Assembly (NCBI RefSeq): GCF_026210795.1
Contig: NC_089444.1
Span: forward strand, 2,532,501-2,596,500
Source of the DNA: Rhizophagus irregularis
Taxonomy: Eukaryota; Glomeromycota; Glomeromycetes; Glomerales; Glomeraceae
Length of the DNA: 64,000 nt
Reading direction: 5' to 3'
Of the stretch, positions 3,258-60,069 are shown in pieces. The translations under genes were made by a program, and so were the position numbers. Under the pieces are notes generated by a model. That model saw nothing but the letters and a program-made list of their open reading frames with translations. It was not told where the DNA came from and did not search any database. Position 1 is the stretch's first letter; each line of letters begins with the position of its first letter.

Positions 3258-6200
3258 TCATTTGAAACTAATTGGGAGTGCACAATCATCCAAAGATTGA
3301 GAATTAAGATCCTTTGTAATAGGATTAAGTAATCGAGATGTATAAATAGCTTGTGGATGGGTAACTATTTGGTAATTTTCAGTGGATAAAAGATTTGCTC
3401 TTCTATATTCTTCTGCTTGCCTAAATTGTATTTCAATTTCTTCATTTTCTACAATATATAATTCCCCAAAATATGACTCATGAAATAATGTGATTAATTT
3501 ATCAATCTCAGAAATATTTGGTCTATCATTTTTGTCTAAATTCCAACACTTTTTCATTAAATCAATATAATAATTTGGTGCTTCTGACTCACTTATTTCA
3601 GGTCTAACTCCTTTTTCACAAATATCTAATGCCAAATCAAAATCATGTGCACGATGACCAAAAGGTTGTCTTCCAGTTGCTACAAAATACATTATCATAC
3701 CAAAACTATAGATATCTGCTGCTTGTTTATAAGACTTTCCTCTTAATACTTCAGGAGCCACATAAGGCATAACTCCATAAATTTTTGTTTCATCTATATT
3801 ATCAACTTCTCCACATAATCCCATATCTGAAATTAATACACAATTACTAAAATTATTTATGAAATTTAAAAATAATATATTTCCTGTATGAAAATCACGA
3901 TGAACTAAATTTCTTTGATGAATTTCTTTAAGACCCTTAATAATATTAAGTAATGCAGATAGTTTATCACCCCAATTAAAATATTTATAGTTTTTATTTA
4001 TCCAATGATTAAAATTTCCATCTTTTGCATATTGGAGAACCATAATATATTCTTTTGTATCTGGATTTTGAGATATTCCATATATATTAAGAATATTACT
4101 ACTTTTGTTTATTGAGTATTCTTTAACCTATTAAAATACATTGATATTAAAAAATAATTATTACATTTATGCTTAAATAAAATGATTATTATATTATAGT
4201 GATTCTTTTAAAAAAGTTTCATACCTCATTTAAAAATTTATCAGTAATACTTTGGGAATTATACAAACATTTCAAAGCAATTATTCTATTTGGATTCCTT
4301 TTGTAGATTTGTTTATCCACATCAAATTCTAATGGACCATTCTTCCATTCTGCTGAATATACTGTAGAAAAACCACCTTTACCTATTTCCTTAATATCAT
4401 TAAACTGACTGTATAGTATCCATTCAAATACTATCATATCATTATAGTCATTTATTTTTAATTGCCTTTCTAGAATGAAATCATCAACTATTTCATTTCC
4501 ACTTGACCAGATAAGAACCAAAATATAATCTTCTGTATCTGGATTTTTGGATATTCCATATAATACTTGAAAAGCTTTATACTTTGTTGGATACTTTTTA
4601 GCCTAATGTAAATATAAGAATATATATATTAATTTAAGGGTTTTGTTTTTTATTACACCTGCGTTATGTCGCACCCCTATAATATGTCACATATAAAAGT
4701 CAAAAATGGCATTCTGATTCCTTTTTGATATATTAAAAAAAACTTGCAGAGCGGTCAAAAATACGCATAGTATAAGGTTTCTTATAGTATATAGTAAGTG
4801 CATAAGGTCTCATGCCAGGTTTTTTTAAAAATGGGAAATCTTAACGAAGTCACGTGATAAAAATGATCAACATAATTAATATATAAAAATTACCAAAAAA
4901 GGAAGATGCGACATATCGCAGGTGCGAAAAAAACATATCCTTAATTTAAAAAAAGTATTTAAATATTTAAAGAAATGTCATACCTCATTTATTAAAGAAT
5001 CAATGGATTCTTGTGAATTATGAAAACATTTTAAAGCAACTTCTTTATTTGAATCTCTTGTATAATTACTCTTTTTATTCTTTTTGTATAATGGACCAGC
5101 CTTCCATATTGCTGAATATACAGTTATAAGACCATTTTTGCCTGTCTCTTTAATTTCATTAAACTGATTGTATGGTATCCATTCAAGCACTATATCATCA
5201 TAGATAATATCATTATCAGAGTCATATATATCAACATCATGGTCATTTATTTTTAATTGCCTTTCTTGAATGAACTCGTCAATTTTTTTATTTCCACTTG
5301 TCCATATACAATTATTTTGAATAAAAATAAAATCTCCTGAATCTGGATTTTGAGATATTCCATACAATACTTGAAATGCATATGTTTTTGTTGAATATTT
5401 TTTAGCCTAAATATAAAATAAAAGAGATTGTAAATATTAATTAAAAAAAATATTTAAATATTTTAAAGAAATTCCATACCTCATTTATTAAAGAATCAAT
5501 GGATTCTTGTGAATTATGTAAAAATTTTAAAGCAACTTCTTTATTTGAATCTCTAGTATAATTTTCATACTGCTTATTATAAAATAATGGACCATCCTTC
5601 CATATTGCTGAATATACTGTTATAAGACCATTTTTGCCTGTCTCTTTAATTTCATTAAACTGATTGTATGGTATCCATTCAAGCACTGTATTATCATAGA
5701 TAATATTATTATCAGAGTCATATATATCACCATCATGGTCATCTATTTTTAATTGCCTTTCTTGAATGAAGTCATCAATTTTTTCATTTCCACTAATCCA
5801 ATTTGTCAAGTTTATAGTATTACTTAGAACAAAAATAAAATCTCCTGTATCTGGATTTTGAGATATTCCATATAATACTTGAAATACTTCATGTTTTATT
5901 AGATATTTTTTAGCCTAAATATAAATAAAAGAGATTGTAAATATATTAACTAAAAAGTATTTAAATATTTGAAGAAATTTCATACCTTATTTATTAAAGA
6001 ATCAATGGATTTTTGTGAATTATGTAAACATTTTAAAGCAACTTCTTTGTTTGGATCTCTTGAATAACTATCATAACTATATTTCTTGTATAATGGACCA
6101 TCCTTCCATATTGCTGAATATACTGTTATATGGTCATTTTTGCCTGTCTTTTTAATTTCTTTAAACTGATTATATGGTATCCATTCAAGTATTATATCAT

Positions 6201-9200
6201 TATAGTTATTTATTTTTAATTGCCTTCTTTGAATAAAGTCATCAATTTTTTTATTTTCACTTATCCATATATAATTATTTTGAACTAAAATATAATCTTC
6301 AGTATTTGGATTTTGAGATATTCCATACAATACTTGAAATGAATTATGATTTGTTAGATATTTTTTAGCCTAGATATAAATGAAATTGTAAATATATTAA
6401 CTAAAAAGTATTTAAATATTTGAAGAAATTTCATACCTCATTTATTAAAATATCAATGGATTCTTGTGAATTATGTAAACATTTTAAAGAAACCACTTTG
6501 TTATGATCTCTTGTATAATTACTATAACTATATTTCTTATATAATGGACCATCTTTCCATATTGCTGAATATACTGTTATAACACTATTTTTGTCTATTT
6601 CTTTGATTTTATTAAATTGATTGTATGGTATCCATTCAAGAACTATATCATCATAGTCATTTATTTTAAATTGCCTTTCTTAGATGAATTCATCAATGTT
6701 TTCATTTCCACTTTCCCATATATAATTATTTTGAACAAAAATATAATTTCTTGTATTTGGATCTTGAGATATTCCATATAATGCTTGAAATGCTTTATGA
6801 TTTGATGGATATTTTTTAGTCTAAATATAAATAAGAGATTGTAAATATATTGACTAAAACGTATTTAAATATTTGAAAGAATTTTATACCTCATTTATTA
6901 AAGAATCAATGGATTCTTGTGAACTATGTAAACATTTTAAAGCAACTTCTTTATTTGAATCTCTTGTATAATTACTCAAGCTATTCTCCTTGTATAATGG
7001 ACCATCCTTCCATATTGCTGAATATACTGTTATAAGACCATTTTTGCCTGTCTCTTTAATTTCATTAAACTGGTTGTATGGTATCCATTCAAGCACTATA
7101 TCATTATAGTTATTTATTTTTAATTGCCTTCTTTGAATAAAGTCATCAATTTTTTTATTTTCACTTATCCATATATAATTATTTTGAATTAAAATATAAT
7201 CTCCAGTATCTGGATTTTGAGATATTCCATACAATACTTGAAATGAATTATGATTTGTTGGATATTTTTTAGCCTAGATATAAATAAAAGAGATTGAAAA
7301 TATATTAATTAAAAAAGTATAAGTATTTGAAGAAATTTCATACCTCATTTATTAAAGAATCAATGGATTTTTGTGTATTATGTAAACATTTTAAAGAAAC
7401 TTTTGTATTTGAATCTCTTGTATATTCATTATTATACTGACAATATAATGGACCATTCCTCCATATTGCTGAATGTACTGTTACAATATTATTTTTGCCT
7501 ATCTCTTTAATTTCATTAAATTGATTGTATGGTATCCATTCAAGCACTATATCATCATAGTCATCTATTTTTAATTGCCTTCCTTGAATGAAGTCATCAA
7601 TTTTTTCATTTCCACTAATCCATTTTACTAAATTTATAGAATTATTTTGAACTAAAATATAATCTCCTGTAACTGGATTTTGAGATATTCCATACAATGC
7701 TTGAAATGCTTTATGATTTGATGGATATTTTTTAGCCTAAATATAAATAAGAGATTGTAAATATATTAATTAATAAAAACAGTTAGATATTTGAAGAAAT
7801 TTCATACATCATTTATTAAAGAATCAATGGATTCTTGTGAATTATATAAACATTTTAAAGCAACTTCTTTATTTGAATCTCTTGTATAATTATTACTCTG
7901 GTTATATTTTTTATATAATGGACCATCCTTCCATATTGCAGAGTATACTATTATAAAACCATTTTTACTTGTCTCTTTAATTTCATTAAACTGGTTGTAT
8001 GGTATCCATTCAAATACTATATCATCATAGTTATTTATTTTTAATTGCCTTTCTTGAATGAAGTCATCAATTTTTTCATTTTCACTTGTCCATATATAAT
8101 TATTTTGAACCAAAATATAATCTCCTGTATCTGGATTTTGAGATATTCCATACAATACTTGAAATGCATTATGATTTATTGAATATTTTTTAGCCTAAAT
8201 ATAAATACAAGAGATTGTGAATATATTAATTAAAAAGTATTTAAATACTTGAAGAAATCTCATACCTCATTTATTAAAGAATCAATGGATTCTTGTGAAT
8301 TATGTAAACATTTTAAAGCAACTTCTTTAGTTGAATCTCTTGTATAACTTTCATCCTGCCAATACTTCTTATATAGTGGACCATCCTTCCATATTGCTGA
8401 ATATACCGTTATAAGACTATTTTTGCCTAATTCTTTAATTTCATCAAACTGGTTGTATGGTATCCATTCAAGTATTATATCATTATAGCCATTTATTTTT
8501 AATTGCCTTCCTTGAATGAAGTCATCAATTTTTTCATTTCCACTGATCCATTTTACTAAATTTATAGAATTATTTTGAACTAAAATATAATCTCCTGTAT
8601 CTGGATTTTGGGATATTCCATACAATAATTGAAATGCTCTAATTCTTGTTGGATATTTTTTAGCCTAATTATAAATAAAAGAGATTGTAAATATATTATC
8701 TAAAAAAGTATTTAAATATTTGAAGAAATTTAATACCTCATTTATTAAAGAATCAATGGATTCTTGTGAATTATGTAAACATTTTAAAACAACTTCTTTA
8801 GTTGAATCTCTTGTATAATTTTTATCCTGCCAATGCTTCTTATATAATGGACCATCCTTCCATATTGCTGAATATACTGTTATAAGATCATTTTTGCCTA
8901 ACTCTTCAATTTCATTAAACTGGTTATATGGTATCCATTCAAGTACTATATCATTATAGTCATTTATTTTTAATTGCCTTTTTTGGATGAAATTATCAAT
9001 TTTTTCATTTCCACTAATCCGATTTGTCAAGTTTACTATATAATTTTGAACAAAAATATAATCTCCTGTATCTGGATTTTGGGATATTCCATACAACACT
9101 TGAAATGCTCTATAGCTTGTTGAATATTTTTTAGCCTAAATATAAATAAAAGAGATTGTAAATATATTAATTAAAAAAAATACTTAAGAAATTTCATACC

Positions 9201-10021
9201 TCATTTATTAAAGAATCAATGGATTCTTGTGAATTATGTAAACATTTTAAAGCAACTTCTTTATTTGAGTCTCTTGTATAACTACTATTACTATACTTAT
9301 AGAATGGACCATCCTTCCATATTGCTGAATATATTGTTTTAAGACCATTTTTGCCTGTCTCTTTAATTTCATTAAACTGATTATATGATATCCATTCAAG
9401 CACTATAGTATCATCATGGTCATTTATTTTTAATTGCCTTTCTTGAATGAAATCATCAATTTTTTCATTTCCACTAATCCAATTTGTCAAATTTATAGTA
9501 TAGCTTTGAACAAAAATAAAATCTCCTGTATCTGGATTTTGAGATATTCCATACAATACTTGAATTGCTCTATGGTTTGTTGAATATTTTTTAGCCTAAA
9601 TATAAATAAAGGATATGTAAATATATTAAAATAAACATTTTTAAATAATTAAAGAATTTCATACCTCATTTATTAAAAAATCAATAGATTCTTGTGAATT
9701 ATGTAAGCATTTTAAAGCAACTTTTTTATTTGAATCTCTTGTGTAATCATTACCATTCAACAACTTGTATAATGGACCATCCTTCCATATTGCTGAATAT
9801 ACTGTTGTAAGACCATTTTTACCTTTCTCTTCAATTCCATTAAGCTGATTGTATGGTATCCATTCAAGCACTATATCATTATAGTCATAGACATTTATTT
9901 TTAATTGTCTTCCTTTAATGAAACTATTAATTTTTTCATTTCCGCTGGTCCAATTTGTAAAATTGGTTTCTAAATATTCCAGAATATTATCTTCTGTTAA
10001 AGGTATATTTTGAGGAAACAT
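3258..10021 (-). CDS. Kinase gene A: 11 degenerate N-lobe exons plus one complete TKL kinase
   Basis: Predicted 13 exons: 10021-9665, 9595-9200, 9135-8737, 8664-8266, 8194-7808, 7736-7344, 7273-6890, 6820-6437, 6369-5986, 5914-5480, 5406-4984, 4602-4225, 4127-3258. All junctions are phase 0. Exons 1-11 each encode an N-lobe with GKNGLITVYSAIW in the glycine loop. Exon 12 has an intact GKGGFSTVYSAEW and the VAIK-type lysine (IALK). Exon 13 has HRDFHTGN, DMG in place of DFG, APE, and a tail of about 80 residues ending ISFK. Full length would be 1862 codons with the kinase near residues 1515-1770. However, exon 8 carries an in-frame TAA (6680-6682); skipping it leaves 1734 aa in frame. The start at 10021 gives MFPQNIPLT, conserved in genes B and C. 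Likely a cytosolic Ser/Thr or dual-specificity kinase; substrate unknown. An annotation pipeline could wrongly split this into many small genes. Confidence 0.82.
4638..4940. mobile_element. MULE-like MITE in intron 11 of kinase gene A
   Basis: A 303-bp insertion swells this intron to 381 bp. It is flanked by the 9-bp direct repeat ttaatttaa (4629-4637 and 4941-4949). Its ends are inverted repeats of about 35 bp; the best core is 18 bp (4656-4673 against 4907-4924) with one mismatch, 'cacctgcgttatgtcgca'. It has no coding capacity. A 9-bp target duplication and terminal G-rich ends fit a Mutator-like (MULE) non-autonomous element; the superfamily is inferred. It carries a TCACGTGA palindrome at 4850-4857. 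Confidence 0.85.
4984..10021 (-). repeat. Tandem array of 11 kinase N-lobe exons (gene A)
   Basis: The unit is about 455-470 bp: an exon of 384-435 bp plus an intron of 64-73 bp. Each unit begins after the acceptor 'tttag' with A/T-K-K-Y, continues AFQVLYGISQNPDTGDYI (beta4-beta5), then SGNEKIDDFIQERQLKIN, EWIPYNQFNEIKE, the degenerate glycine loop, and VALKCLHNSQESIDSLINE, and ends at the donor GTATG. Units differ mainly in a short variable segment after KDGPLY. The unit boundary falls inside helix C, just after its conserved Glu. Confidence 0.9.
6437..6820 (-). pseudogene. Array exon 8 of gene A with an in-frame stop
   Basis: This exon has normal splice sites and normal length (384 bp, phase 0), but the Gln codon of the FIQERQ motif is TAA (6680-6682, codon 47 of the exon; CAA in its sisters). 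It also has other uncommon changes, such as DKNSVITVYS in the loop. Because it is symmetric, skipping it restores a full product ending in the kinase. If it is included, the protein stops after about 951 residues, before the kinase domain. Confidence 0.85.
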
Positions 10022-10935: not shown

Positions 10936-11887
10936 CTTTGTCTATGCTACGAATTTCGTCAGTATCATTTTGTGAAACAAAATTATGAAATGTAATCCTT
11001 TTATTAGTATGGTTGTATTAATAACAAATAATTTTAGACGTAATTTCAATGATCTATGTGCTATATCTCATTTTATTGGTTATTTTTTACGGATTAAAGT
11101 TAGAAGAATTTTATTTGATTATGCTATCACTTTAATCACCAATATATAAAGTTGGTCAGAATTTTCATGGTGTACTAAAAATCTACATATGATATGATTC
11201 AATACTAGTTAATTTTATTAAACGACTTTTCAGTTTGATTCAATACTATATTACGAAAATAGAAATTGTAGGATGAATTTGTTTGTTTTTTGGTATGATA
11301 ATTTGCTCGGTTAAGTCCATTTACTATTTGTGCCGCTAATAATATAACTCAATAAGTATAACTTGATAGTATTAATACGAAAGGCGTGCTGATTTAGCCA
11401 ATAAATATTTGGCGAATAATACAGTTAGCTATACAGTATTTCTCAACTGTTGATATGGGTTCAAAAGAAATGATAACAACATAAAACTATTCTGATTTTC
11501 TGATAGATAGAATGGATTATTATTTAATCGACTCTTTAACGTTAGTATGTTAATAGTCACAATCTTGTAAATATGATTCGTTGTGTTGCAATCACCGCAG
11601 TTGATTAACATAATCGAGTAACATAAATCCGGGTACTACCTGCGCTTCATAATAATAAATTGGTTAAATTGTGCGTTATACAACTTGACCAATATGATTG
11701 GCATGATTGGATAAATAAATTTTACACTACCCAAATATGTAAAACAAGGGTAATTAAAATTACACTAACCAAATATGTAAAACAAGGGCAATTAAAATAG
11801 ATAAATTCGTAACAGTTTTATACGCCGAGTAAAAAAATTATTATTTTTTTTTTTTTCCTCGAAAAATATCAAGTATATCACAATACA

Positions 11888-21482: not shown

Positions 21483-24400
21483 TCATTTGAAACTAATTGG
21501 AAGTGCACAATAATCCAAAGATTGAGAATTATAATCATCATTATTTTTTGGAAGATCTTTTGTAATAGGATTAAGTAATCGAGATGTATAAATAGCTTGC
21601 GGATGGGTAACTATTTGGTAATTTTCAGTGGATGAAAGATTTGCTTTTCTATATTCTTCTGCTTTCTTAAACTGTATTTCAATTTCTTCATTTTCTACAA
21701 TAAAAAAATCCTCCCCATATAACTCATGAAATGATGTAATTAATTTATTTACCTCAAAAACATCAGGTCTATTATTTTTGTCTAAATCCCAACACTTTTT
21801 CATTAAATCAATATAATTACTTGGTGCTTCTGGCTCACTTATTTCAGGGTTAGCTCCTTTGCAAATATCTAATGCCAAATCATAATCATGTGCACGATTG
21901 CCAAAGGGTTGTTTTCCAGTTGCTACAAAATACATTATCATCCCAAAACTATAGATATCTGCTGCTTGAGTATAAGGATTTCCTCTTAATACTTCAGGAG
22001 CCATATAAGGCATAACTCCATAAATTTTTGTTTCATCTATATTATCAACTTCACCACATAATCCCATATCTGAAATTAATACACAGTTACTAAAATTGTT
22101 TATGAAATTTGAAAATAATATATTTCCTGTATGAAAATCACGATGAACTAAATTTCTTTGATGAATTTCTTTAAGACCCTTAATAATATTAAGTAATACA
22201 GATAGTTTATCGCCCCAATTAAAATATTTATAGTTTTTATTTATCCAATTATTAAAATTTCCATTTTTTGCATATTGAAGAACTATAATATATTCTTTTG
22301 TATCTGGATTTTGAGATATTCCATATATATTAAGAATATTACTACTTTTGTTTATTGAGTATTCTTTAACCTTTAAAATATAAATTGATATCAAAATTAA
22401 TTATTACACTTATGTTTAAATAAAAGATTATTCTATTATAGTGATTCTTTTAAAAAAGTTTCATACCTCATTTAAAAATTTATCAGTAATACTTTGGGAA
22501 TTATGCAAACATTTCAAAGCAATTACTCTATTTGGATTCCTATTGTAGATTTCTATATTTGCATCATATTCTAGTGGACCATTTTTCCATTCTGCTGAAT
22601 ATACTGTAGAAAAACCACCTTTACCTATTTCCTTAATATCATTAAACTGACTGTATGGTATCCATTCAAATACTATATCATTATAGTCATTTATTTTTAG
22701 TTGCCTTTCTAAAATGAAATCATCAATTATTTCATTTCCACTTGACCAGATAAGAACCAAAATATAATCCTCTGTATCTGGATTTTTGGATATTCCATAT
22801 AATACTTGAAATGCTTTATACTTTGTTGGATATTTTTTAACCTAATATACAGTAAATATAAGAATATATGGGTGTTACGATAACATGTAGTGTATGGATA
22901 CCTATGTATGTAGGGTATGCAAAATTTCACATGCATTCCATACAGACCTACATTGTTTATTACCAAATAAGGAAAGGCCTAGACCGTTCTATTCTGTATC
23001 ACTTATGTCACGTGACACTTTTATATGTGATGTTTAACCATACCTTACATACAAAGCCAACCATACACTACATGTTTACTATGCTCTCAGAATATATTAA
23101 TTAAAAAAAAGTATTTAAATATTTAAAGAAATTTCATACCTCATTTATTAAAGTATCAATGGATTCTTGTAAATTATATAAATATTTCAAAGCAACTTTT
23201 TTATTTGAATCTCTAGTATATTCCTTATATTGTTTATTCCAATATAATGGACCATCATTCCATATTGCTGAATACACTGTTATAAGACCATTTTTACCTG
23301 TCTCTTTAATTTCATTAAACTGATTGTATGGAATCCATTCAAGCACTATATCATCATAGTCATTTATTTTTAATTGCCTTTCTTTAATGTAGTCATCAAT
23401 TTTTTCATTTCCACTTGACCAGATAAGAACCAAAATATAACCTCCCGTATCTGGATTTTGAGATATTCCATATAATGCTTGAAATGCTTTATATTTTGTT
23501 GGATATTTTTTAGCCTAATCATAAATAAAAGAAATTGTAAATATAGTATATTAATTAAAAAAGGATTAAATATTGAAGAAATTAATTTCATACCTCATTT
23601 ATTAAAGAATCTATAGATTTTTGTGAATTATGAAAACATTTTAAAGCAACTTTTTTATTTGAATGTCTTGTAAAATTATCATTCCTCATCATATATAATG
23701 GACCATCATTCCATATTGCTGAATATACTGTTATAAGGCCATTTTTACCTGTCTCTTTAATTTCATTGAACTGATTGTATGGTACCCATACAAGCACTAT
23801 ATTGCCTATATCATCATCATCAATTATTTTTAATTGCCTTTCTTGAATGAAATCATCAATTTTTTCATTTCCACTAATCCAATTTGTCAAGTTTATAATA
23901 TAGTAGTTTTGAACAAAAATATAATCTCCTGTATCTGGATTTTGAGATATTCCATACAATACTTGAAATGCTTTATATCTTGTTGGATATTTTTTAACCT
24001 AATATACAGTAAATATAAGAATATATTAATTAAAAAAAAGTATTTAAATATTTAAAGAAATTTCATACCTCATTTATTAAAGTATCAATGGATTCTTGTA
24101 AATTATGTAAATATTTCAAAGCAACTTTTTTATTTGAATCTCTAGTATATTCCTTATATTGTTTATTCCAATATAATGGACCATCCTTCCATATTGCTGA
24201 ATATATTGTTATAAGACCATTTTTGCCTGTTTCTTTAATTTCATTAAACTGATTGTATGGTATCCATTCAAGCACTATATCATCATAGTCATTTATTTTT
24301 AATTGCCTTTCTTGAATGAAATCATCAATTATTTCATTTCCACTAATCCAATTTGTCAAGTTTATAATATAGTAGTTTTGAACAAAAATATAATCTCCTG

Positions 24401-30232: not shown

Positions 30233-30575
30233 TGAAATTTATCTAATTAACTTACACTAAATTTCAATTTAATAGTGCTCAAGATCTAAAAAATGTAAGG
30301 AACTAAAAATTATAATTAAAATTTAACTTAAACCAATATTCTCGAATACTTTATCAACTTGGTTTATTTTATTATGTAAATACCTTATTAAAAATTTTAT
30401 AATAACGAGCTTGAAAAATATAAAAAAAAAATGGTTGGTCAAATGTCTTATGAACGCTGATCATCAGCATTTGATATTTAACAACGGAAATAAATTTTCA
30501 TTATTTTTGGCATTTCGATAATGGTCCTCTGATTGGTCGAAATTACTAAAATTGAGAAAACTCCTTGTTAAATAA
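30233..30575 (+). repeat. Dispersed repeat copy 3
   Basis: Direct-orientation match to 10420-10935 and 48970-49335, and it holds the uninterrupted form of the site that is split by an insertion at 10603-10772. No kinase gene adjoins it, which shows that the repeat can exist apart from the kinase module. Confidence 0.7.
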
Positions 30576-38213: not shown

Positions 38214-41200
38214 TTAGATTGCATGATCTAAACATTGAGAATTATCATCATCATTATCATATTTTGGAAGATTTTCTGTAAAAGGGTTAAGTAATCGAGA
38301 TGTGTAAATAGCTTGTGGATGGGTAACTATTTGGTAATTTTCAATTGATGAAAGATTTGCTCTTCTATATTCTTCTGCTTTCTTGAATTGCATTTCAATT
38401 TCTTTATTTTTTACTATGAAGAAATTCCCTCCACATGACTTATAAAATGTCAGGACCAATTCATTTATTTCAAGAATATTTGGTCTATTGTTTAGGTTTA
38501 AATCCCAACACTTTTTCATTAAGTCAATATAACATCTTGGTGCTTCTGGCTCATTTATTTCAGGTCTAATTCCCTTGCAAATATCTAATGCTAAACTACA
38601 ATCATGTGCACGATTGTCAAAAGGTTGTCTTCCAGTTGCTACAAAATACATTATCATACCAAAACTATAGATATCTGATGTTTGAGTATAAGGCTTCCTT
38701 CTTAATACTTCAGGAGCCACATATGGCATGACTCCATAAATTTTAGTTTCATCTATATTACCAACCTCTCCACATAATCCCATGTCTGAAATTGATACAC
38801 AATTACTAAAATCATTTATAATGCTTAAAAATAATATATTTCCTGTGTGAAAATCACGATGAACTAGATTTTTCTGATGAATTTCATTAAGACCATTAAT
38901 AATATTAAGCAATGTGGATAACTTATCTTCCCAACTAAAATACTTATAATTTTCATTTATCCAATGGTTAAAATTACCATCTCTTGCATATTGGAGTACC
39001 ATAATATATTCTTTTGTATCTGGGTTTTGGGATATTCCATATATATTAAGAACATTACTTCTCTTGTTTATTGAGTATTCTTTAACCTATTAATATAGAT
39101 AATGTTTAATATATTATATTTGACTACTTGTCATATTTATAAAATTCTCTATTACAAATGGAATTTCATACCTCATTTAAAAATTTATCAGTTATATTTT
39201 GGAAATTTTTTAAACATTTCAGGGCAATTATTCTATTTGGATCCCTACTGTATAAATTTTTATCCAAATTATATACTAGTGGACCATTCTTCCATTCTGC
39301 TGAATATACTGTAGAAAAGCCACCTTTACCTATTTCTTTAATGTTATTAAATTGACTGTATGATATCCACTCAAATATTATATCATTATAATTATTTACT
39401 TTTAATTGCATTTTATGAATGAAATTATCAATTTTTTCATTTCCACTAATCCAATTTACCAAGTTTATAGAATTATTTTGAACCAAAATATATTCTCCTG
39501 TATCAAGTTTTTGAGTTATTCCATATAATACTTGAAATGCTTTATGCTTTGTTGGGTATTTTTTAACCTAAATATAAATAAAAGAAATTGTTAATAATAA
39601 TAATTTAAAAAAGGTACCTAATAATATTGATAAAAATTTCATACCTCATTTATTAAAGAATCAATGGATTTTTGAGAATTATGTAAACATTTTAATACAA
39701 CTTCTTTATTTGAATTTCTTGTATAATCTTCAAGACTATATTTTTTGTAAAATGGACCATCCTTCCATATTGCTGAATATACTGTTATAAGACCATTTTT
39801 GTCTGTCTCTTTAATTTCATTAAACTGATTATATGGTATCCACTCAAACACTCTATCATCATGCTCACTAATTTTTAATTGCCTTTCTTGAATAAAATTT
39901 TCAATTTTTTCATTTCCACTAATCCAATTTGCCAAGTTTATAGAATTATTTTGGACCAAAATATAATCTCTTGTATCTGGATTTTGAGATATTCCAAACA
40001 ATATATGAAATGCTTTAAGTTTTGTTGAATATTTTTTAGTCTGAATATAAATAAAAATTGTTATAAATGTATTTGTCAAAAAAATATTTTTAAAAAAATT
40101 TCATACCTCATTTATTAAAGAATCAATGGATTTTTGTGAATTATGTAAACATTTTAAAGCAACTTCTTTATTAAAATCTCTTGCATAATTTTTATCCCAT
40201 ATACTCATTTTACATAATGGACCATCCATCCATATTGCTGAATATACTGTTATAAGGCCATTTTGGCCTGTTTTTTTTATTTCATTAAACTGATTGTATG
40301 GTATCCATTCAAATACAATATCATCATGATCATTAATTTTTGATTGCATTTCTTGAATGAAATTATCAATTTTTTCATTTCCACTTGTCCAGATAAGAAC
40401 TAAAAAATAATCTCCTGTATCTGGATTTTGAGATATCCCATATAATGCTTGAAATGCATTATGTTTTGTAGGATATTTTTTAGCCTAAATATAAATAAGG
40501 AAATAAGTGGAATTGTAAATATATTATTTAAGAAAAATATTTAAATATTTAAAATAATTTCATACCTCAGTAATTAAAGAATAAATAGATTCTTGTGAAT
40601 AGTGTAAACATTTCAAATTAACCTTTTTATTTGAGTTTCTAGTGTATTCACCATACTGGTTATGCAATGGACCATCCTTCCATATTGCTGAATAAACTGT
40701 TATAAGTTCATTTTTGCTTGTTTCTATAATTTCATTAAACTGACTGTATGGTATCCATTCAAGAACTATATCATCATGATCATTAATTTTTAATTGCCTT
40801 TCTTGAATGAAATCATCAATTTTTTCATTTCTACTGATTTGACATGATAATAAATTTGTATTATCATTTTGAACCAAAATATAATCTCCTGTATCTGGAT
40901 TTTGAGATATTCCATACAATACTTGAAATGCATTTTTGTCTGCTAAATATCTTTCAGCCTAAATATAAATAAAAGAAATTATAAATGTACTAACTAAAAA
41001 AAGTTACTTTAACGTACATTTATAGAATTTACTTACCTTTTTTATTAAAGTATTAATGGATTCTTGTGAGTTATGCAAACATTTTAATGTAACTTTTTTA
41101 TTTAAATTTCTTTTATATTCACCATAATGATAATGTAAAGGACCGTCCTTCCATATTGCTGAACATATTGTTATAAATTCATTTTTACCTGTTTCTATAA

Positions 41201-44200
41201 TTTCATTAAACTGATTGTATGGTATCCATTCTAGTACTATATCATAATCATCATTAATTTTCAATTGCCTTTCAAGAATGAAATCATAAATTTTCACATT
41301 TTTACTGATTTGATTTGCCAAGTTTATAGAATTATTTTGTACCAAAATATAATCTCCTGTATCCGAATTTTGGGATATTCCATACAATACCTGAAATGCT
41401 TCATATTTTATTGGATATTTTTTAGCCTAATTATATTAAAGAGATTGTATATAATAAATTTTAAAAAAGTGTTTAAACATTTAAAGAAATTTATACCTCA
41501 TTTATTAAACATTCAATAGATTCTTGTGAATTATGTAAACATTTTAAAGTAACTTCTTTATTTGAATTTCTTGTGTATTCACCATACTGGTAATGCAATG
41601 GACCATCCTTCCATATTGCTGAATATACTGTTATAAGTTCATTTTTTCCCGTTTCTTTAACTTCATTAAACTGATTGTATGGTATCCACTCAAGCACTAC
41701 TATACCATCGTAATCATCAATTTTTAGTTGCCATTCTTGAATAAAATCATCAATTTTTTCATTTTTACTTATCCATATATAATTACTTAGAACCAAAATA
41801 AAATCTTCTGTATCCGGGTTTTGAGATATTCCATACAATACTTGAAATACATCTTTATCTGTCAGATACCTTGTGGCCTAAGTATTGATTAAAGTGATTG
41901 TAAATATACTCATTAAAAAAAAAAATACTTAATATTTATAGAAATATCATACCTCATTTATTAAAGAATTAATAGATTTTTGTGAATTATTTAAATGCTT
42001 TAAAGCTACTTTTTTATTTAAGTTCCTAGTATAATTTTTACATAGTTCATTATAAAATAATGGACCATCCTTCCATATTGATGAATATACTGTTATGAGG
42101 CCATTTCTACCTATCTCTTTAATTTCAATAAACTGATTATATGGTATCCATTCAAGCACTTTATCTTCATAGTCATTAGTTTTTAATTGCACTTCTTGAA
42201 TGAAATTATCAATTGTTTCATTTTTACTGATCTGATTTGCCAAATTTGTAGAATTATTTTGAACTAAGATATAATCTCCTGTGTCTGGATTTTGAGATAT
42301 TCCATACAATACTTGAAATGCTTTATATTTTGATGGATATTTTCTAGCCTAATAAGTATAATAGAAGAAATTGTAAATATATTAATAGAAGAAAGCAGTT
42401 ATTTAAAAAAATTTTGTACCTCATTTATCAAAGAAACAACAGAATTTTTTATATTATATAAGCATTTTAAAGCAACTTCCTTATCTGAATCTCTTGCATG
42501 AATTTTATCCCATATGCTCTTTTTATATAATGGGCCATCATTCCATATTGCTATGAGGTCATTTTTCCCTATTTCTCTAACTATATTAAACTGATTGTAT
42601 GGTATCCATTCTAGTACTATATCATCATATTTATTAATATTTAATTGCCTTTCTTGAATGTAATTATCAATTTCTTCATTTCCACTCGTCCAGATGAGAA
42701 CTAAAATATAATCTCCTGAATCTGGATGTTGAGACATACCATATAATAATTGAAATGCTTTATATTTTGTTGGGTAATTTTTAGCCTAAACAAAATATAT
42801 TGTAAGCATACTAATTAAAAATAATATTGAAATATTTGAATAAATTTCATACCTCATTTATTAAACATTCAATAGATTCTTGTGAATTATGTAAACATTT
42901 TAAAGAAACTTCTTTATTTGAATTTCTTTTATAATTACCATATTGATAATACAATGGACCATCCTTCCATATTGCTGAATATACTGTTATAAGATCATTT
43001 TTGCCTGTTTCTTTAACTTCATTAAACTGATTGTATGGTATCCATTCTAGCACTACATCATCATGGTAATTAATTTTTAATTGCCTTTCTTGGATGAAAC
43101 TATAAATTTTTTCATTTTTACTGATCTGATTTGTCAAGTTTACAGAATTATTTTGAACCAAGATATAATCTCCTGTATCCGGATTTTGAGATATCCCGTA
43201 TAGTACATGATATGCATCTTTGTCTGTTGAATATTTTTTAGCCTAAGTATAAATTGAAGAAATTGTAAATCTATCTAATTAGAAAACAATACTTAATATT
43301 TAAAGAAATTTCATACCTCATTTATTAAAGAATCAATGGATTCTTGTGAATTATTTAAGCATTTTAAAGCAATTTCTTTATTTGGATCTCTAGAATCTTC
43401 ATACTGTTCATTATGGCATAATGGACCATCCTTCCATATTGCAGAATATATTGTTATAAGTTCATTTTTGCTTGTCTCATTAATTTCATTAAACTGATTA
43501 AATGGTATCCATTCAAGTTGTATGTCATCATAATCATTTATTTTTAATTTTCTTTCTTGAATGAAATCATTAATTTTATCATTTTTGCTAATCTGATTTA
43601 CCAAGTTTGTAGAATTATTTTGAACAAAAATATAATCTCCTGTATCTGGATATTGTGATATTCCATATAATACTTGAAATTCATCTTTGTTTGTTAAATA
43701 AATTTTAGCCTAAGTAGAAATAATAGAGATAGTAAATATATTAATTAAAAGAAAAATTATTTAAATATTTGAAAAATTAAATACCTCATTTATTAAAGTA
43801 TTAATTGATTTTCGTAAATTATGTAAACACTTTAAAGCTACTTTTTTATTTGAATCTCTTATATAATTTTCATCCCACCAATGCTTTTTATGTAATGGAC
43901 CATCCTTCCATATTGCCGAATATACTGTTATAAGGCCATTTTTGCCTGATTTCTCAATTTCATCAAACTGATTATATGGTATCCATTCAAGCACTATATC
44001 ATCATGGTGAATAATTTTTAATTGTCTTTCTTGAATGAAATCATCAATTTTTTCATTTCCGCTAATCTGATTTGCCAAGATAATAGAACTATTTTGAACT
44101 AGAATATAATCTTTTGTATCTGGATTTTGAGATATTCCATATAATACTTGAAATGCTTCATAATTTATTGGATATTTTTTAGCCTATATAGAAGAAATTG

Positions 44201-47200
44201 TAAGTATACTAATTAAAAAAAGTACTTAATTAAAGAAATCTTATACCTCATTTATTAAAGAATCAATGGATTTTTGTGAATTTTGTAAACATATTAAAGC
44301 AATTTCTTTATTTGGATTTCTTTTATATTCACTATATTGACAATTCAATGGACCATCCTTCCATATTGCTGAATATACTGTTTTAAAGCCATTTTTACTT
44401 GTCTCTTTAATTTCACTAAACTGATTGTATGATATCCATTCAAGTACTATATCTTTATATTCATTAATTTCTAATTGTTTTTTTTGAATAAAACTATCAA
44501 TTTTTTCATTTCCACTATTCCAATTTACCAAGTTTATAGAATTATTTTGAACCAAAATATAATCTCCTGTATCTGAATTTTGAGATATTCCATATAATAT
44601 GTGAAATGCTTTATATTTTGTTAGATATTTTTTAGCCTAATAAATATAATAAAAGAGATTGTAAATATATTAATTAAAAAAAATACTTAAGAAATTTCAT
44701 ACCTCATTTATTAAATAATCAATGGATTTTTGTGAATTATGTAAACATTTTAAAGCAACTTCTTTATTTGAATCTCTAGTATAATTTTCATACTGTTCAC
44801 TATAGTGTAATGGACCATCCTTCCATATTGCTGAATATACTGTTGTAAGACCATTTTTGCCTGTCTCTTTAATTTCATTAAACTGATTATATGGTATCCA
44901 TTCAAGCACTATATCATTATAGTCATTAATTTTTAATTGACTTTCTTGAATAAAATTATCAATTATTTTATTTCCACTTGCCCAGATAAGAACAAAAATA
45001 TAATCTCCTGTATCTGGATTTTGGGATATCCCATACAATACTTGAAATTTATTATACTTTGTTGGATATTTTTTAGCCTATATCAATATATAAATAAAAA
45101 AAATTGTAAATGTATTATTTAAGAAAATATTTAAGTAGTTGAAAAAATTTCGTACCTCATTTATTAAAAAATCAATGGATTCTTTTGAATCATGCAAGCA
45201 TTTTAAAGCTACCTTTTTATTTGAATTTCTTGTATATTTTTTTTTCCGCTTATTCCAATACAATGGACCATCCTTCCATACTGCTGAATATACCGTTATA
45301 AGGTTAATTTTGCCTGTCTCACTAATTTCATTAAACTGACTGTATGGTATCCATTCAAGCACTATATCATTATGATCATTAATTTTCAATTGCCTTTCTT
45401 GAATAAAATTATCTATTTTTTCATTCTTGCTAATCCAATTTGTCAAGTTTATAGACTTATTTTGAATTAAAATATAATCTCCTGTATCTGAATTTTGAGA
45501 TATTCCATACAATACTTGAAATGCATCATTGTCTGTTAAATACCTTTTAGCCTTAATATAAGTAAAAGAGATTATAAATGTAATAATTAAAAAAAGGTGT
45601 TTAATATTTAAAAAAATTCCATACCTCATTTATTAAAAAATCAATGGATTCTTGTGAACTATGTAAGCATTTTAAAGCAACTTCTTTATTAGGATCTCTT
45701 GTATAATTACTCCATTCATACTTTTTGTGTAATGGACCATCTTTCCATATTGCTGAATACACTATTATAAGGTCATTTTTGCCTGTCTCTTCAACCTCAT
45801 TAAACTGATTGTATGGTATCCATTCAAGCACTATATCATCATAGTTAATAATTTTTAATTGTCTTTCTTGAATGAAATCATCAATTTTTCCATTTCCACT
45901 GATCCAATTTGTCAAGTTTATCGAATCATTTTGAACAAGAATATAATCTCCTGTATCTGGATTTTGAGATATTCCATATAATACTTGAAATCCTTCATAT
46001 TTTGTTTGGCATTTTTTAGCCTATATAGAATAAATTGTGAATATATTAATTGAATGTAAAGTAATTAAATATCAAAGAAATTTTATACCTCATTTATTAA
46101 AAAATCAATGGATTTTTGTGAATTATGTAAACATTTTAAAGCAACTTCTTTATTTGGTTCTCTTGTATAATTTTTATCCAATATACTCTTTTTACATAAT
46201 AACCCATCTTTCCATATTGCTGAATATACTGAAATAAGATCATTTTTCCCTGTCTCTTTAACTTCATTAAACTGATTGTATGGTATCCATTCAAGCACTA
46301 TATCATCATATTCATTAATATTAAATTGCCTTTTTTGAATAAAATTATCAATTTTTTCATTTTCACTGATCCAATTTGTCAAGTTCCTTTGAACAAGAAT
46401 ATAATCTCTTGTATCTGGACTTTGAGATATTCCATATAATACTTGAAATGCATCTTTGTCTGTTGAATACCTTTTAGCCTAAGTATAAATAAAAGAGATT
46501 GTAAACATAATAATTAAAAAAAGGTGCTTAATACTTAAAGAAATTCCATACCTCATTTATTAAAGTATCAATGGATTCTTGTGAATTATTTAAACATTTT
46601 AAAGCAACTTCTTTATTCGATTCTCTAGTATAATTTTCATACTGTTCATTATAAAATAATGGACCATCCTTCCATACTGCGGAATATACTGTTATAAGTT
46701 CATTTTTGCCTGTCTCTTTGATTTTACTAAACTGATTATATGGTATCCATTCAACCACTGCTTCATCATATTCATTAATTTTTAATTGCCTTTTTTGGAT
46801 AAAATTGTCGATTTTTTCATTTCCGCTGATCTGATTTGCCAAGTTTATAGAATTATTTTGAATCAAAATATAATCTCCTGTATCTGGATTTTGAGTTATT
46901 CCATATAATACTTGAAATGCATCTTTGTCTGTTAAATATCCTTTAGCCTAAGTATAATAAAAGAGATTGTAAATATACTAAGTTGCTACCCTACGAAAAA
47001 AGAATATCCGGAATTTGTCACCAAAATTGTTCAGAAATTGTCCAGTATACCTATAAATGTCTGGAAAATATTTGAAATTATGAAAAAATATGGCGTCCAG
47101 AATTTTTCAAGTCTGGAATTTGTACAGATATGAAAAATTCAGTACAAATTTCGGATAGACAAAACTGGACTAATTCTGGATACAAAAAATCCTGGACGAT

Positions 47201-48425
47201 CTCTGCACAAAAAAAGCCAGACAAATTCTGGTAGTTGGATAAGATAAAATTCCACAATAAAAAATCAAAAAAATGTAAAAAGTATTTAAAACTTCTGTGT
47301 GTGTACTAAGTAAACTTAAAGAGTAAGCAAAATACTATCAATGATGTTACTTTAAACTGCTATAAACAGTTATCAGTTATTTGTATAAAGGAATATATCA
47401 TTGATATTATGACTTGCTGATCATTTTAGAGAAAAACATTTTTCCGGACAAATTCCAAATCTGGACATCCGGAAAATATTCCAAATCTTGCTGTTTTCAG
47501 GACATTCATTTTGTCCGGAATTCGTACAATTATATTCTGACAATTTCAGAATATTTTCCGGACACATTTTTTTCGTAGAGTTAATTAAAAAAAAAAACAA
47601 ATATAAAAATTTCATACCTCATCTATTAATAAATCAATGGATCCTTGTGAATTATTTAAACATTTTAGAGCAACTACTATATTTGAATCTCTTGTATAAT
47701 TTTCATACTGTTCATTATAGCGTAATGGACCATCCTTCCATATTGCAAAATATACTGTTATAAGGCCATTTTTGCTCGTTTCTTTAATTTCATTAAACTG
47801 ATTGTATGGTATCCATTCAAGTACTATATCATTATAATCATTAGTTTTCAATTGCTTTTCTTGAATAAAGTTATCAATTTTTTCATTTCCACTTGCCCAG
47901 ATAAGAACTAAAATATAATCTCCTGTATCTGGATTTTGAGTTATTCCATACAATACTTGAAATACATCTTTGTTTATGATTAAATATCTTTTAGCCTAAG
48001 TATAAATAGAAGTGATTGTAAATATACTAATATAAAAAAATACTTAATATTCAAAAAAAATATCATACTTCATTTATTAAAAAATCGATGGATACTTGTG
48101 AATTATGCAAACATTTTAAAGCAACTTCTTTATTTGAATCTCGTGTATAATTTTTATCCCACTTACTCTTTTTACATAATGGACCATCCTCCCATATTGC
48201 TGAATATATTGTTACAAGGCCATTTTTACCTGTTTCTTTAACTTCATTAAACTGATTATATGGTATCCATTCAAGCACAATATTGTCATCATGGTCATTA
48301 ATTTTTAATTGCCTTTCTTGAATAAAATCATTGATTTTTTCATTTCCACTGGTCCAATTTGTGAAGTTAGTCTCTAAAAATTCTAGAATATTATTTCCTG
48401 TCAAAGGTATATTCTGAGAAAACAT
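38214..48425 (-). CDS. Kinase gene C: 18 degenerate N-lobe exons plus one complete TKL kinase
   Basis: Predicted 20 exons: 48425-48069, 47995-47618, 46947-46552, 46478-46089, 46020-45625, 45551-45156, 45077-44703, 44636-44247, 44183-43785, 43709-43317, 43242-42853, 42785-42420, 42348-41953, 41877-41497, 41426-41037, 40958-40566, 40484-40107, 40040-39645, 39567-39172, 39086-38214. Every exon is a multiple of three and every junction phase 0; no internal stop was found. The product would be 2742 aa. Exons 1-18 are degenerate N-lobes (mostly GKNGLITVYS or GKNELITVYS). Exon 19 has an intact GKGGFSTVYSAEW, and exon 20 has LVHRDFHTGN, SDMGLC and APEVLRRKPY, ending near residue 2742 with CLDHAI. Exon 12 lacks four residues of the loop (GKNDLIAIW). 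Intron 2 (670 bp) holds a transposon. The start MFSQNIPLT is an ATG. Probably a kinase with a very long regulatory or scaffold arm; ligand unknown. Confidence 0.82.
39645..48425 (-). repeat. Tandem array of 18 kinase N-lobe exons (gene C)
   Basis: This is the longest array: 18 units, mostly about 460 bp apart, with introns of 63-81 bp apart from one interrupted intron. Units are more diverged from one another than in gene B, and recurring subtypes occur: ISKNEKI versus ISGNEKI, variable segments such as HYQYGEYTRNSNKE (exons 11, 14, 15, 16) versus YNEQYENYTRDSN (exons 2, 3, 7). Similar subtypes lie near each other, as expected from local duplication. Confidence 0.88.
46989..47579. mobile_element. 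Transposon-like insertion in intron 2 of kinase gene C
   Basis: The intron is 670 bp rather than about 70. Near its ends stand 'cctacgaaaaaa' (46990-47001) and its inverse 'ttttttcgtag' (47569-47579). The inner sequence on both sides has facing 'gtccggaa' and 'aattgt' words. The intron's normal ending, 'ttaattaaaaa', resumes right after. No coding capacity. A target duplication is not obvious. It resembles the element at 20993-21228 in inner words. Confidence 0.7.
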
Positions 48426-56476: not shown

Positions 56477-59400
56477 TCAGATTACTTGATCTAAACATTG
56501 AGAATTATAATCATCATCATTTTTTAGAAGATCTTTTGTAATAGGATTAAGTAATCGAGATATGTAAATAGCTTGTGGATGAGTAGCTGTTTGGTAATTT
56601 TCAATGGAAACAAGATATGCTCTTCTATATTCTTCTGCTTCCTTAAATTGTATTTCAATTTCTTCATTTTCTACAATAACAATATTCTCCACATATAACT
56701 CATAAAATGATTTTATTAATTTATATATCTCAAAAATATCTGGTCTATTATTTTTATCTAAATCCCAACACTTTTTCATTAAATCAATATAATATTTTGG
56801 TGCTTTTGGCTCACTTATTTTAGGTCTAACTCCTTTGCAAATATCTAATGCTAATTCATAATCATGTGCATGATTTCCAAAAGGTTGTCTTCCAGTTGCT
56901 ACAAAGTACATTATCATACCAAAACTATAGATATCTGCTGCTTGAGTATAAGGCTTTCCTCTTAATACTTCAGGAGCCACATAAGGCATAACTCCATAAA
57001 TTTTTGTTTCATCTAAATTATCAACTTCTCCACATAATCCCATATCTGAAATTAATACATAGTTACTAAAATTACTTATGAAATCTAAAAATAATATATT
57101 TCCTGTATGAAAATCATGATGAACTAAATTTCTTTGATGAATTTCTTTAAGACCAATAACAATATTAAGTAATACAGATATTTTATCCCTCCAATTAAAA
57201 AATTTATAGTTTTCATTTATCCATTTATTAAAATTGCCTTCTTTTGCATATTGGAGAACCATAATATATTCTTTTGTATCTGGATTTTGGGATATTCCAT
57301 ATATATTAAGAATATTACTACTTTTACTTATTGAGTACTCTTTAACCTATTAAAATACATTGATATCAAAAAATCATTATTACATCATGCTTAAATAAAG
57401 ATTATTATAGTGTTTTTTTTAAAAAGTTTCATACCTCATTCAAAAATTTATCAGTAATACTTTTGGAATTATGCAAACATTTCAAAGCAATTGCTCTATT
57501 TGGACTCCTATTGTAAATGTCTTTATCCACACCATATTCTAATGGACCATTCTTCCACTTTGCTGAATATACTGTAGAAAAACCACCCTTATCTATTTCA
57601 TTAATCTCATCAAACTGACTGTATGGTATCCATTCAAGCACTATATCATCATAGCCATAGTCATCTATTTTTAATTGCATTTCTTGAATGAAATAATCAA
57701 TTTTTTCATTTCCACTTGTCCACATAAGAACTAAAATATAATCTTCTGTATCTGGATTTTGAGATATTCCATACAATGCTTGGAATGATTTATATTTTGT
57801 TGGATATTTTCTAGCCTAATTATAAATAAAAGAGATGTAAATATATTAATTAAAAAAGGTATTTAAATATTTGAAGAAATTTCATACCTCGTTTATTAGA
57901 GATTCAATGGAATTTTGTGAGTGATTTAAATATTTTAGAGCAACTTTTTTATTTAAATCTCTTGTATAATTGCTCTGACTATTCTTTTTGAATAACGGAC
58001 CATCCTTCCATATTGCTGAATATACTGTTATAAGGTCATATTTGCCTGTCTCTTTAATTTCATTAAACTGATTGTATGGTATCCATTCAAACACTATATC
58101 ATTATAATTATTAACTTTTAACTGCATTTCTTGGATGAAATCATCGATTTTTTCATTTCCACTTGTCCAGGTAAAAACAAAAATATAATCCCCTGTATCT
58201 GGATTTTGAGATATCCCATATAATACTTGAAATGCTTTATGTTTTGTTGGATATTTTTTAGCCTAATGTAAATAAAAGAGATTGTAAATATATTAATTAA
58301 AAGGCATTTATATATTTAAAAAAATTTCATACTTCATTTATTAAAGAATCAATGGATTCTTGTGTATTATGCAAACATTTTAAAGCAACTTTTTTATTTG
58401 AATCTCTTGTATAACTACTATAACTATATCCCTTATATAATGGACCATCCCTCCATATTGCTGAATATAATGTTATAAGACTATTTTTGCCTAATTCTTT
58501 AGTTTCATTAAACTGGTTATATGGTATCCATTCAAGCACTATATCATCATAGTCATTTATTTTTAGTTGCCTTTCTTGAATGAAGTTATCAATTTTTTCA
58601 TTTCCACTAATCAATATATAGCTATTTTGGACCAAAATATAATCTCTTGTATCTGGATTTTGAGATATTCCATATAATACTAGAAATGCACCTTTGTCTG
58701 TTGAATATCTTTTAGCCTAAATATAAATACAAGGGATTGTAAATATATTAATTAAAAAAAATACTTAAGAAATTTCATACCTCATTTATTAAATAATCAA
58801 TGGATTTTTGTGAATTATTTAAACATTTTAAAGCAACTTTTTTATTTGAATCTCTATCATAATCATCAAAATACTTGTATAATGGACCATCTTTCCATAC
58901 TGCTGAATATACTGTTATAAAATCATTTTTGCCCGCTTCTTTAATTATATTGAATTGATTATAGGGTATCCATTCAAACACTATATTCTTATAGTAATTA
59001 ATTGTTAATTGTCTTTCTTGAATTAAATCATCAATTTTTTCATTTCCACTGTTCCAATTTACTAAGTTAATAAAACTATTTTGAACAAAAATATAATATC
59101 CTGTATCTGGATTTTGAGATATTCCATACAATACTTGAAATGCATCTTTATCTGTTGAATATCTTTTAGCCTAAATATGAATAAAAGAGATTGTAAATAT
59201 ATTAATTAAAAAGGTATTTAAATATTTAAAGAATTTCATACCTCATTTATTAAAGAATCAATAGATTTTTGTGAATTATGTAAATATTTTAAAGCAACTT
59301 CTTTGTTTGAATCTCTATTATAATGTTTATAATGTTTATACTGTTCATTATAGCATAATGGACCATCCTTCCATATTGCTGAATATACTGTTATAAGACC

Positions 59401-60069
59401 ATTTTTGCCTGTTTCTCTAACTTCATTAAACTGATTATATGGTATCCATTCAAGCAATATATCATCATAGTCATTTATTTTTAATTGCCTTTCTTGAATG
59501 AAATCATCAATTTTTTCATTTCCACTTGTCCATATATAATTATTTTGAACAAAAATATAATCTCCTGTATCTGGATTTTGAGATATTCCATACAATACTT
59601 GAAATGCTTTATACTTTGTTGGATATTTTTTAGCCTAATAAATATAATAAAAGAGATTGTAAATATATTAATTTAAAAAAATACTTAAGAAGAAATTTCA
59701 TACCTCATTTATTAAAGAATCAATGGATTCTTGTGAATTATGTAAATATTTTAAAGCAACTTTTTTATTTGAATCTCTATTATAATGTTTATACTGTTCA
59801 TTATAGTATAATGGACCATCCTTCCATATTGCTGAATATACTGTTATAAGACCATTTTTACCTGTCTCACTAATTTCATTAAATTGATTGTATGGTATCC
59901 ATTCAAATACTACATCATCTTCATTATCTTCATTATTGATTTTCAATTGCATTTCCTGAATGAAGTTATCAATTTTTTCATTTTCACTGGTCCAATTTGT
60001 AAAATTGTTTTTTAAATATTCCAGAATGTCAGGTATCTCTAAAGGTTCTTCAAAATCTTCAAAATCCAT
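56477..60069 (-). CDS. Kinase gene D: 5 degenerate N-lobe exons plus one TKL kinase with altered motifs
   Basis: Predicted 7 exons: 60069-59704, 59634-59242, 59170-58781, 58716-58333, 58262-57888, 57815-57435, 57346-56477; all phase 0, 1053 codons (1052 aa). The N-terminus differs from A-C: MDFEDFEEPLEIPDILEYLK, acidic. Exons 1-5 are degenerate N-lobes. Exon 6 has the kinase-type loop but with the first Gly replaced (DKGGFSTVYSAKW). Exon 7 has HHD in place of HRD (codon 57116-57118, CGT to CAT in comparison with gene A), then DMG and APE, ending CLDQVI. Loss of the loop Gly and the HRD Arg may weaken or abolish activity, although HRD-Arg loss alone does not always do so. It shares its 3' flank with gene B but not the promoter palindrome of A-C. 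ATG at 60069 is chosen over an upstream TTG. Confidence 0.83.
57888..60069 (-). repeat. Tandem array of 5 kinase N-lobe exons (gene D)
   Basis: The shortest array of the four: five units, introns 64-71 bp. Exons 1 and 2 share the variable segment YNEQYKHYNRDSNK, with a small internal repeat (KHYKHY) in exon 2, which suggests a recent local duplication. Confidence 0.88.

Follow-up and report, generated by a model that had tools for sequence, protein, structure and literature searches.

Kinase genes with tandem arrays of degenerate N-lobe exons in Rhizophagus irregularis

The DNA considered here, a window of 64,000 nucleotides from contig NC_089444.1 of the arbuscular mycorrhizal fungus Rhizophagus irregularis, raises the question of why a kinase gene should carry many copies of half a kinase domain. 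Read from stop to stop, its minus strand holds four runs of open frames of about 130 codons, each run closing with a frame of about 290 codons, and the repeats are plainly visible at the DNA level. An earlier sequence-only reading had taken the runs for four kinase genes in one 57-kb cluster, with 40 degenerate and 4 kinase-type exons that encode only the small lobe (N-lobe) of a kinase. We give an even chance to the view that these genes encode real multi-N-lobe kinases, in which the dead lobes would form a repeat arm for multivalent binding that recruits, clusters or restrains the terminal kinase.

Splice donors and acceptors alternate along the four genes, once three candidates within gene C exons (one donor and two acceptors) are set aside. 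The resulting models (Table 1) contain 12, 7, 19 and 6 N-lobe exons in genes A to D, each array followed by a kinase C-lobe exon. These 44 exons bear out the counts of 40 degenerate units (11, 6, 18 and 5 per gene) and 4 of kinase type, the latter being the last N-lobe exon of each gene (GKGGF in the glycine loop; DKGGF in D). The span of 3258-60069 given for the cluster also holds, since it runs from the final base of the gene A stop codon (3258) to the A of the first in-frame ATG of gene D (60069). The 44 introns are without exception GT-AG introns of phase 0 and occupy one common site, after the final residues of helix C (mostly N-E); 39 of them measure 63-88 nt and the other five 96, 97, 298, 381 and 670 nt. 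The lengths of all 48 exons are divisible by 3 and, because the introns share both phase and place, any number of exons could be added or skipped with the frame kept. Three introns (4983-4603, 23139-22842 and 47617-46948) exceed the others by about 225-600 nt and look insertion-like, with the splice sites spared. One gene C exon (42785-42420) is without four residues of strand β2.

An internal exon begins with AKKYP..FQVLYGISQNPDTGDYILV, which is the end of helix C, β4 and β5, continues through the linker GNEKIDDFIQERQL, for which a single-exon structure model predicts a helix at residues 37-50, and ends with NEIKETGKNGLITVYSAIW..VALKCL..SIDSLINE, which is β1, β2, β3 and helix C. It thus combines the closing two strands of one lobe with the first three strands and helix C of the next. 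The statement that the exons encode only the small lobe is right as to the pieces and needs amending as to the boundaries: each exon spans parts of two lobes. As each N-lobe would be completed only across a splice junction, from exons n and n+1, the exons would have to be joined. β5 runs directly into the next linker with no C-lobe between units, and an array unit is not a pseudokinase domain in the sense of a complete two-lobed fold that has lost its catalytic residues. A circularly permuted lobe folding from a single exon was also considered and rejected: the single-exon model leaves β4-β5 loose, and the lobe-wise residue classes described below argue against it. That model has a predicted local distance difference test score (pLDDT) below 50 for residues 1-35, with β4-β5 unplaced, and is usable only for β1-β2-β3-αC.

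The architecture recurs across the genome (32 contigs, 146,748,485 bases). A protein search with one unit returned at least 152 matches on at least 12 contigs (150 of 4511 candidates scored), so that "one 57-kb cluster", correct in that the four genes lie there, understates the family. Twenty stretches were fetched, yielding 18 further arrays and, with the window, 22 in all; a 23rd group turned out to be a piece of some other kinase gene. The longest fetched array has about 20 or more N-lobes. In 20 of the 22 arrays the C-lobe exon lies directly downstream of the string; in four of these 20 it is truncated where the stretch ends, and in L020, among these four, it reads in two frames. In L007 the C-lobe exon comes about 5 kb further on and contains one stop. 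L006 (G000:C9:3337001-3346500) is an array that breaks off inside a unit, with a long open reading frame (ORF) of another gene next to it. First exons are in view in 19 of the 22 arrays and carry one of two related leaders.

We found 220 full-length units, with AG and GT at the expected splice ends in 219 each and a stop in two. The 218 units with both splice ends (198 internal and 20 last exons, from the window and the 18 further arrays) were used for comparisons of motifs, stops, identity, halves and the ratio of nonsynonymous to synonymous differences (pN/pS). A gapless pattern for the altered glycine loop had 140 matches in the genome versus none for a reversed control; it catches 88 of the 218 known units, the very set on which it was tuned, and the genome should therefore hold some 350 or more such exons, as a rough figure. 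Units are slightly more alike within their own array than between arrays (mean nucleotide identity 85.7% vs 83.4%), and the nearest relative lies in the same array for 128 of 198 units (9.9 expected). Identical units also occur, as parts of blocks repeated at a fixed step; in L010 such a block comprises three units, with two pairs identical and one at 98.4%. Block duplication therefore adds units to the arrays, and strains should differ in array length. Pattern-based scans of viral contigs and of bacterial and archaeal genomes found no relatives, in sets that may omit this genome's own records.

Two classes of lobe can be told apart. At position 3 of the glycine loop all 20 last exons have Gly, and internal exons have Asn in 187 of 198 and Gly in one; at position 5 all last exons have Phe, and the internal ones Leu (135 of 198) or Phe (27). 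The pseudo-lobes thus share an alternative loop, GKNGLI versus GKGGF in the kinase type. In kinases generally, the glycine loop holds the ATP phosphates, and the pair formed by β3 Lys and αC Glu marks the active position of helix C. The word "degenerate" used in the sequence-only reading holds only in part: the altered loop is itself conserved, and of the 198 internal exons 186 retain the β3 Lys and 178 the αC Glu. In the last exons, β3 Lys, αC Glu and GGF are present in 20 of 20 and the first loop Gly in 16. These counts are by alignment column; a first count by regular expression had misread strand β3 and was discarded. In a FastTree phylogeny with the loop masked, a branch with a support of 100 separated 19 of the 20 last exons, together with one internal exon, from the rest.

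The division between the classes runs through the last exon. Its β4-β5 half shows no majority-residue difference from internal exons at 29 positions and is of pseudo type, whereas its β1-αC half differs at 27 of 60 positions (divergence 0.368) and is of kinase type; the β4-β5 segment of 19 terminal exons, in turn, departs from the pseudo type at 12 of 26 positions. Class thus goes with the spliced lobe and not with the exon. As the residue classes track the lobe that splicing would make, they support the joining of neighbouring exons, although the mosaic could also be a purely historical outcome of unequal crossover in the linker.

The terminal part belongs to the protein kinases. The last N-lobe and terminal exons of gene D, the one of the four genes given this full-profile test, match PF07714 when joined with 132.3 bits (2.5e-38) over profile positions 5-256 of 258. 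HRD or HHD, SDMG and APE are present in the terminal exons of all four window genes; with the β3 Lys, αC Glu and glycine loop of the last N-lobe exons, they make up the protein kinase (PF07714/PF00069) set of HxD, DxG, APE and N-lobe motifs. The dead lobes are more distant. Exons 1-6 of gene D, joined, match PF07714 at 9.4e-10, best over the exon 4-5 junction; Pfam searches with three lone array exons (two internal, one last) gave no family and a search with a first exon gave no kinase. Since the pseudo-lobes are too diverged to score, it is their homology to the kinase-type lobe within the same genes that identifies them as N-lobes: the two types of exon are 60-63% identical over the exon, and 33 of 60 majority residues of the β1-αC half are common to both. 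The predicted single-exon fold adds weakly to this; in a Foldseek search, protein kinases made up 34 of the best 50 of 863 rows, in a database (PDB) where kinases are over-represented. We thus agree that the units are kinase small-lobe pieces with a changed glycine loop ahead of one complete kinase.

The coding frame has largely been kept open. A stop occurs in the coding frame of 2 of the 218 units and in each of the five other frames of all 218, and a neutral simulation at the observed divergence left 94% of units with a stop, a contrast that is overstated as the simulation treats units as independent. When halves were searched separately, 246 of 249 units read in one frame, with five in-frame stops. 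The multiple-of-three length of the 218 units was not used as evidence because both ends had been placed in one frame when the set was built. Constraint is uneven along the unit: 20 sites have a pN/pS below 0.15 and 21 sites exceed 1.2, 13 of the latter lying in the αC-β4 loop (unit positions 5 and 7-10) and the β2-β3 loop (99-107). The highest values, up to 2.85, fall in the gap-rich part of the loops, and the site ratios above 1 are only suggestive of positive selection. Altogether, splice sites, frame, constraint at core sites and the mosaic last exon favour the joined protein proposed in the sequence-only reading, which we infer from the DNA.

According to the multi-N-lobe reading, each locus would give one long protein made of a short leader, a string of dead N-lobes (5 to 18 in the window genes) separated by linkers of about 45 residues with a predicted helix, and one complete PF07714-type kinase formed by the last, kinase-type N-lobe and the sole C-lobe. 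Each lobe would be built across a junction, with β1-β2-β3-αC from exon n and β4-β5 from exon n+1. The pseudo-lobes should fold, because the Lys-Glu pair and the core residues are mostly kept, and should not be enzymes, because they are without a C-lobe and the loop glycine; their GKNGLI loop should not hold ATP phosphates. The sequence-only reading had put forward decoys, scaffolds or a ligand-binding arm as candidate roles. The repeat arm probably serves in binding: its fold would be constant and its β2-β3 and αC-β4 loops variable, its partners would be other lobes, kinases or ligands, and their binding would recruit, cluster or restrain the terminal kinase.

Several results weigh against this reading. 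Exon 8 of gene A (6820-6437) contains an in-frame stop, and constraint is on average moderate to weak. In a set of 216 units (the two with stops left out; 197 degenerate by a motif rule) forming 19,306 pairs, the mean ratio of nonsynonymous to synonymous substitution rates (dN/dS) was 0.42 at dS 0.4-0.7, 0.56 at 0.2-0.4 and 0.85 at 0.1-0.2. It reached 1.35 in the 150 closest pairs, which we do not read as positive selection because choosing pairs by low dS biases the ratio. Overall pN/pS is 0.66; 8 of the 21 sites above 1.2 lie outside both loops, and the β2-β3 loop overlaps alignment gaps, so that the high ratios there may be inflated. The β4-β5 halves of last and internal exons have a mean divergence of 0.082, above the null maximum of 0.061. 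As to the fold, Pfam found no kinase family in any of 12 isolated joined pseudo-lobes, and the joined gene D string that matches PF07714 also reaches the cut-off of the unrelated BCS1_N (28.2 vs 28.1 bits). In a PDB search with a joined pseudo-lobe an unrelated protein ranked first (E = 0.41), followed by the best kinase, in register, at E = 0.52. Foldseek with the single-exon model had no hit at 1e-3, and polymerases filled its first three rows. A two-exon model that read through the intron (pLDDT 49) placed intron residues within a long helix C; it is uninformative and was not used as evidence. Retrocopies, sought as fossil mRNA, were not found: a junction pattern had four hits, equal to the control count, none of them in a unit, and no spliced junction was seen.

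What else could such arrays be? They could be an exon menu for combinatorial splicing, with one or few N-lobes per transcript and many isoforms per locus, which we consider unlikely. In mutually exclusive arrays of the Dscam type, each transcript takes up one array exon. Here the phase-0 introns at one boundary would let any skip in the window genes keep the frame, and gene A could avoid its exon 8 stop. However, one would expect many competent lobes in a menu serving one C-lobe, and only the last N-lobe exon is of kinase type. Somewhat less probable in our estimate is an intramolecular competition in which pseudo-N-lobes mainly take the true N-lobe's place on the single C-lobe, in an autoinhibitory stack that keeps the kinase off. 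The αC Glu and β3 Lys retained in most pseudo-lobes would suit such docking, but the 27 differences in 60 majority residues between the pseudo and kinase types of β1-αC speak against it, and the many copies would be left unexplained.

A neutral tandem expansion of exons, tolerated without function in a repeat-rich genome, would account for the block duplications and the moderate to weak average constraint, and would fit the general kinase expansion in R. irregularis (PMC8647823, PMC6123716). It is hard to reconcile with units that keep one frame in 246 of 249 cases and have stops in 2 of 218, or with a fixed alternative loop, twenty near-invariant sites and one architecture in 22 arrays, and we hold it to be a little less probable again than lobe competition. 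We give very little credence to the idea that the units are separate small genes or untranscribed repeats: in the window the internal units begin at an acceptor, the ATG leader occurs in first exons only, and a lone-exon model leaves β4-β5 unplaced.

To place the arrays within the wider kinase family, we examined the DNA upstream of 29 loci from a list of 135 relatives of the terminal exon; rank guided the choice and, for some of the loci, units already known nearby. At least two N-lobe matches lie within about 2-2.6 kb upstream in 27 of the 29; L028 has one and L033 none. A 30th locus, L050, from the general PF07714 list, has one. Among the more distant relatives L035-L049, a zinc-ribbon motif (CxxC..WCxxC) occurs two or three times between units in 13 of 15. 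These loci (L035, L037-L047 and L049) form a second kind of array, with the motif placed between β5 and the linker. The motif is absent from the window, and L001-L034 contain three single matches: in L004 (in another gene), L017 (stop-broken) and L027. Of 12 kinases from the general PF07714 list, ten have one N-lobe, L055 has four and L058 none, and seven carry the zinc-ribbon motif; N-lobe and C-lobe matches are separate in the sampled ordinary members, as if an intron lay near helix C. We read these as a series of ordinary kinases (zinc ribbon plus one N-lobe), zinc-ribbon arrays and stripped window-type arrays, which may have arisen in this direction. L058 (G000:C19:3446600-3449499) has a kinase C-lobe with three zinc-ribbon-like motifs and no N-lobe match upstream, and is perhaps a further diverged array. 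At G000:C4:750950-751588, two PF07714 matches lie in an open frame of 2077 codons, unusually long for the PF07714 family.

Other features were seen near the genes. Genes A and C are preceded, at a distance of about 0.5-0.6 kb, by a short repeat (10497 and 49042), which for gene B lies at 30314, about 4.5 kb upstream. On the plus strand, a 522-codon ORF at 11813-13381 has an F-box-like domain at its N-terminus; at 16205-17497 an ORF with a ubiquitin domain (3.6e-21) is followed by one with a below-cut-off match to the PARP catalytic domain (6.8e-4), possibly a ubiquitin-PARP gene. Upstream of gene B, ORFs at 28331-29402, with a QRICH1-domain match below cut-off and Phage_integrase at cut-off, may belong to a Crypton-like element with a tyrosine recombinase.

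Table 1. Gene models and exons of the four-gene cluster (window coordinates)
Feature	Coordinates	Strand	Description
Gene A	3258..10021	-	13 exons (12 N-lobe + C-lobe), coding sequence 5589 nt, one in-frame stop, exon 8
Terminal exon A	3258..4127	-	β4-β5 + C-lobe; HRD, SDMG, APE
Last N-lobe exon A	4225..4602	-	pseudo-type β4-β5 half, kinase-type β1-αC half (GKGGF)
Gene A internal pseudo-N-lobe exons, n=10	4984..9595	-	
Gene A first exon	9665..10021	-	ATG at 10021; pseudo-N-lobe β1-αC part
Gene B	21483..25829	-	8 exons (7 N-lobe + C-lobe), intact coding sequence, 1199 aa
Terminal exon B	21483..22370	-	β4-β5 + C-lobe
Last N-lobe exon B	22467..22841	-	kinase-type
Gene B internal pseudo-N-lobe exons, n=5	23140..25403	-	
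Gene B first exon	25476..25829	-	
Gene C	38214..48425	-	20 exons (19 N-lobe + C-lobe), intact coding sequence, 2742 aa
Terminal exon C	38214..39086	-	β4-β5 + C-lobe
Last N-lobe exon C	39172..39567	-	kinase-type
Gene C internal pseudo-N-lobe exons, n=17	39645..47995	-	42785-42420 without part of β2
Gene C first exon	48069..48425	-	
Gene D	56477..60069	-	7 exons (6 N-lobe + C-lobe), intact coding sequence, 1052 aa
Terminal exon D	56477..57346	-	HHD in place of HRD; SDMG, APE
Last N-lobe exon D	57435..57815	-	DKGGF
Gene D internal pseudo-N-lobe exons, n=4	57888..59634	-	
Gene D first exon	59704..60069	-	

Known systems resemble these genes in part. In Janus kinases the JH2 pseudokinase precedes the JH1 kinase, so that a regulatory pseudo-domain stands directly ahead of an active one, but JH2 is one complete pseudokinase domain and there is no array. 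KIND, the kinase non-catalytic C-lobe domain, shows that half a kinase can act alone as a binding module; it is a C-lobe rather than an N-lobe, and to our knowledge does not form long tandem arrays before a kinase. Plant tandem kinase-pseudokinases (TKPs), such as wheat Yr15/WTK1, for which a decoy role has been proposed, also combine a dead kinase copy with a kinase in one protein, with altered residues that include the glycine loop (PMC6170490). They belong to another kingdom and have two whole kinase-like domains in tandem, whereas each window gene has 6 to 19 N-lobes and one C-lobe exon. The WD, ANK and TPR repeats of high internal conservation in fungal NOD-like receptors (NLRs), are characterised by repeats more than 85% identical across 100 or more residues, by repeat-number polymorphism between strains and by positive selection (PMC4986451). 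They share with the present arrays tandem turnover, a conserved core with variable positions and an attached signalling domain (PMC4986451); the within-array identity here averages 85.7%, with some pairs at 96-100%, measured on nucleotides. The folds differ, and the partner there is an NLR, here a kinase with kinase N-lobes as repeats. The terminal kinase itself belongs to the tyrosine-kinase-like PF07714 family, whose expansion in R. irregularis is documented (PMC6123716, PMC8647823, PMC10234402); ordinary members differ from the arrays in having a single N-lobe (10 of 12 sampled). The excerpted literature on R. irregularis kinases, plant TKPs and fungal NLR repeats holds no description of an N-lobe array; Kwon et al. 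2019, which may treat R. irregularis pseudokinases, lies outside this comparison.

The two lobes of a kinase are normally seen as inseparable halves. An N-lobe copied up to some 20 times, in frame and with a conserved loop of its own, would make the half-domain a repeat module. More tentatively, the kinase N-lobe may have become a building block of repeat proteins, in lineage-specific receptors or scaffolds whose lobes are finished over splice junctions, whose repeats turn over and whose loops diversify ahead of one active kinase, as a kinase-based counterpart of the fungal NLRs. A family of N-lobe arrays would account for part of the large kinase expansion in arbuscular mycorrhizal fungi.

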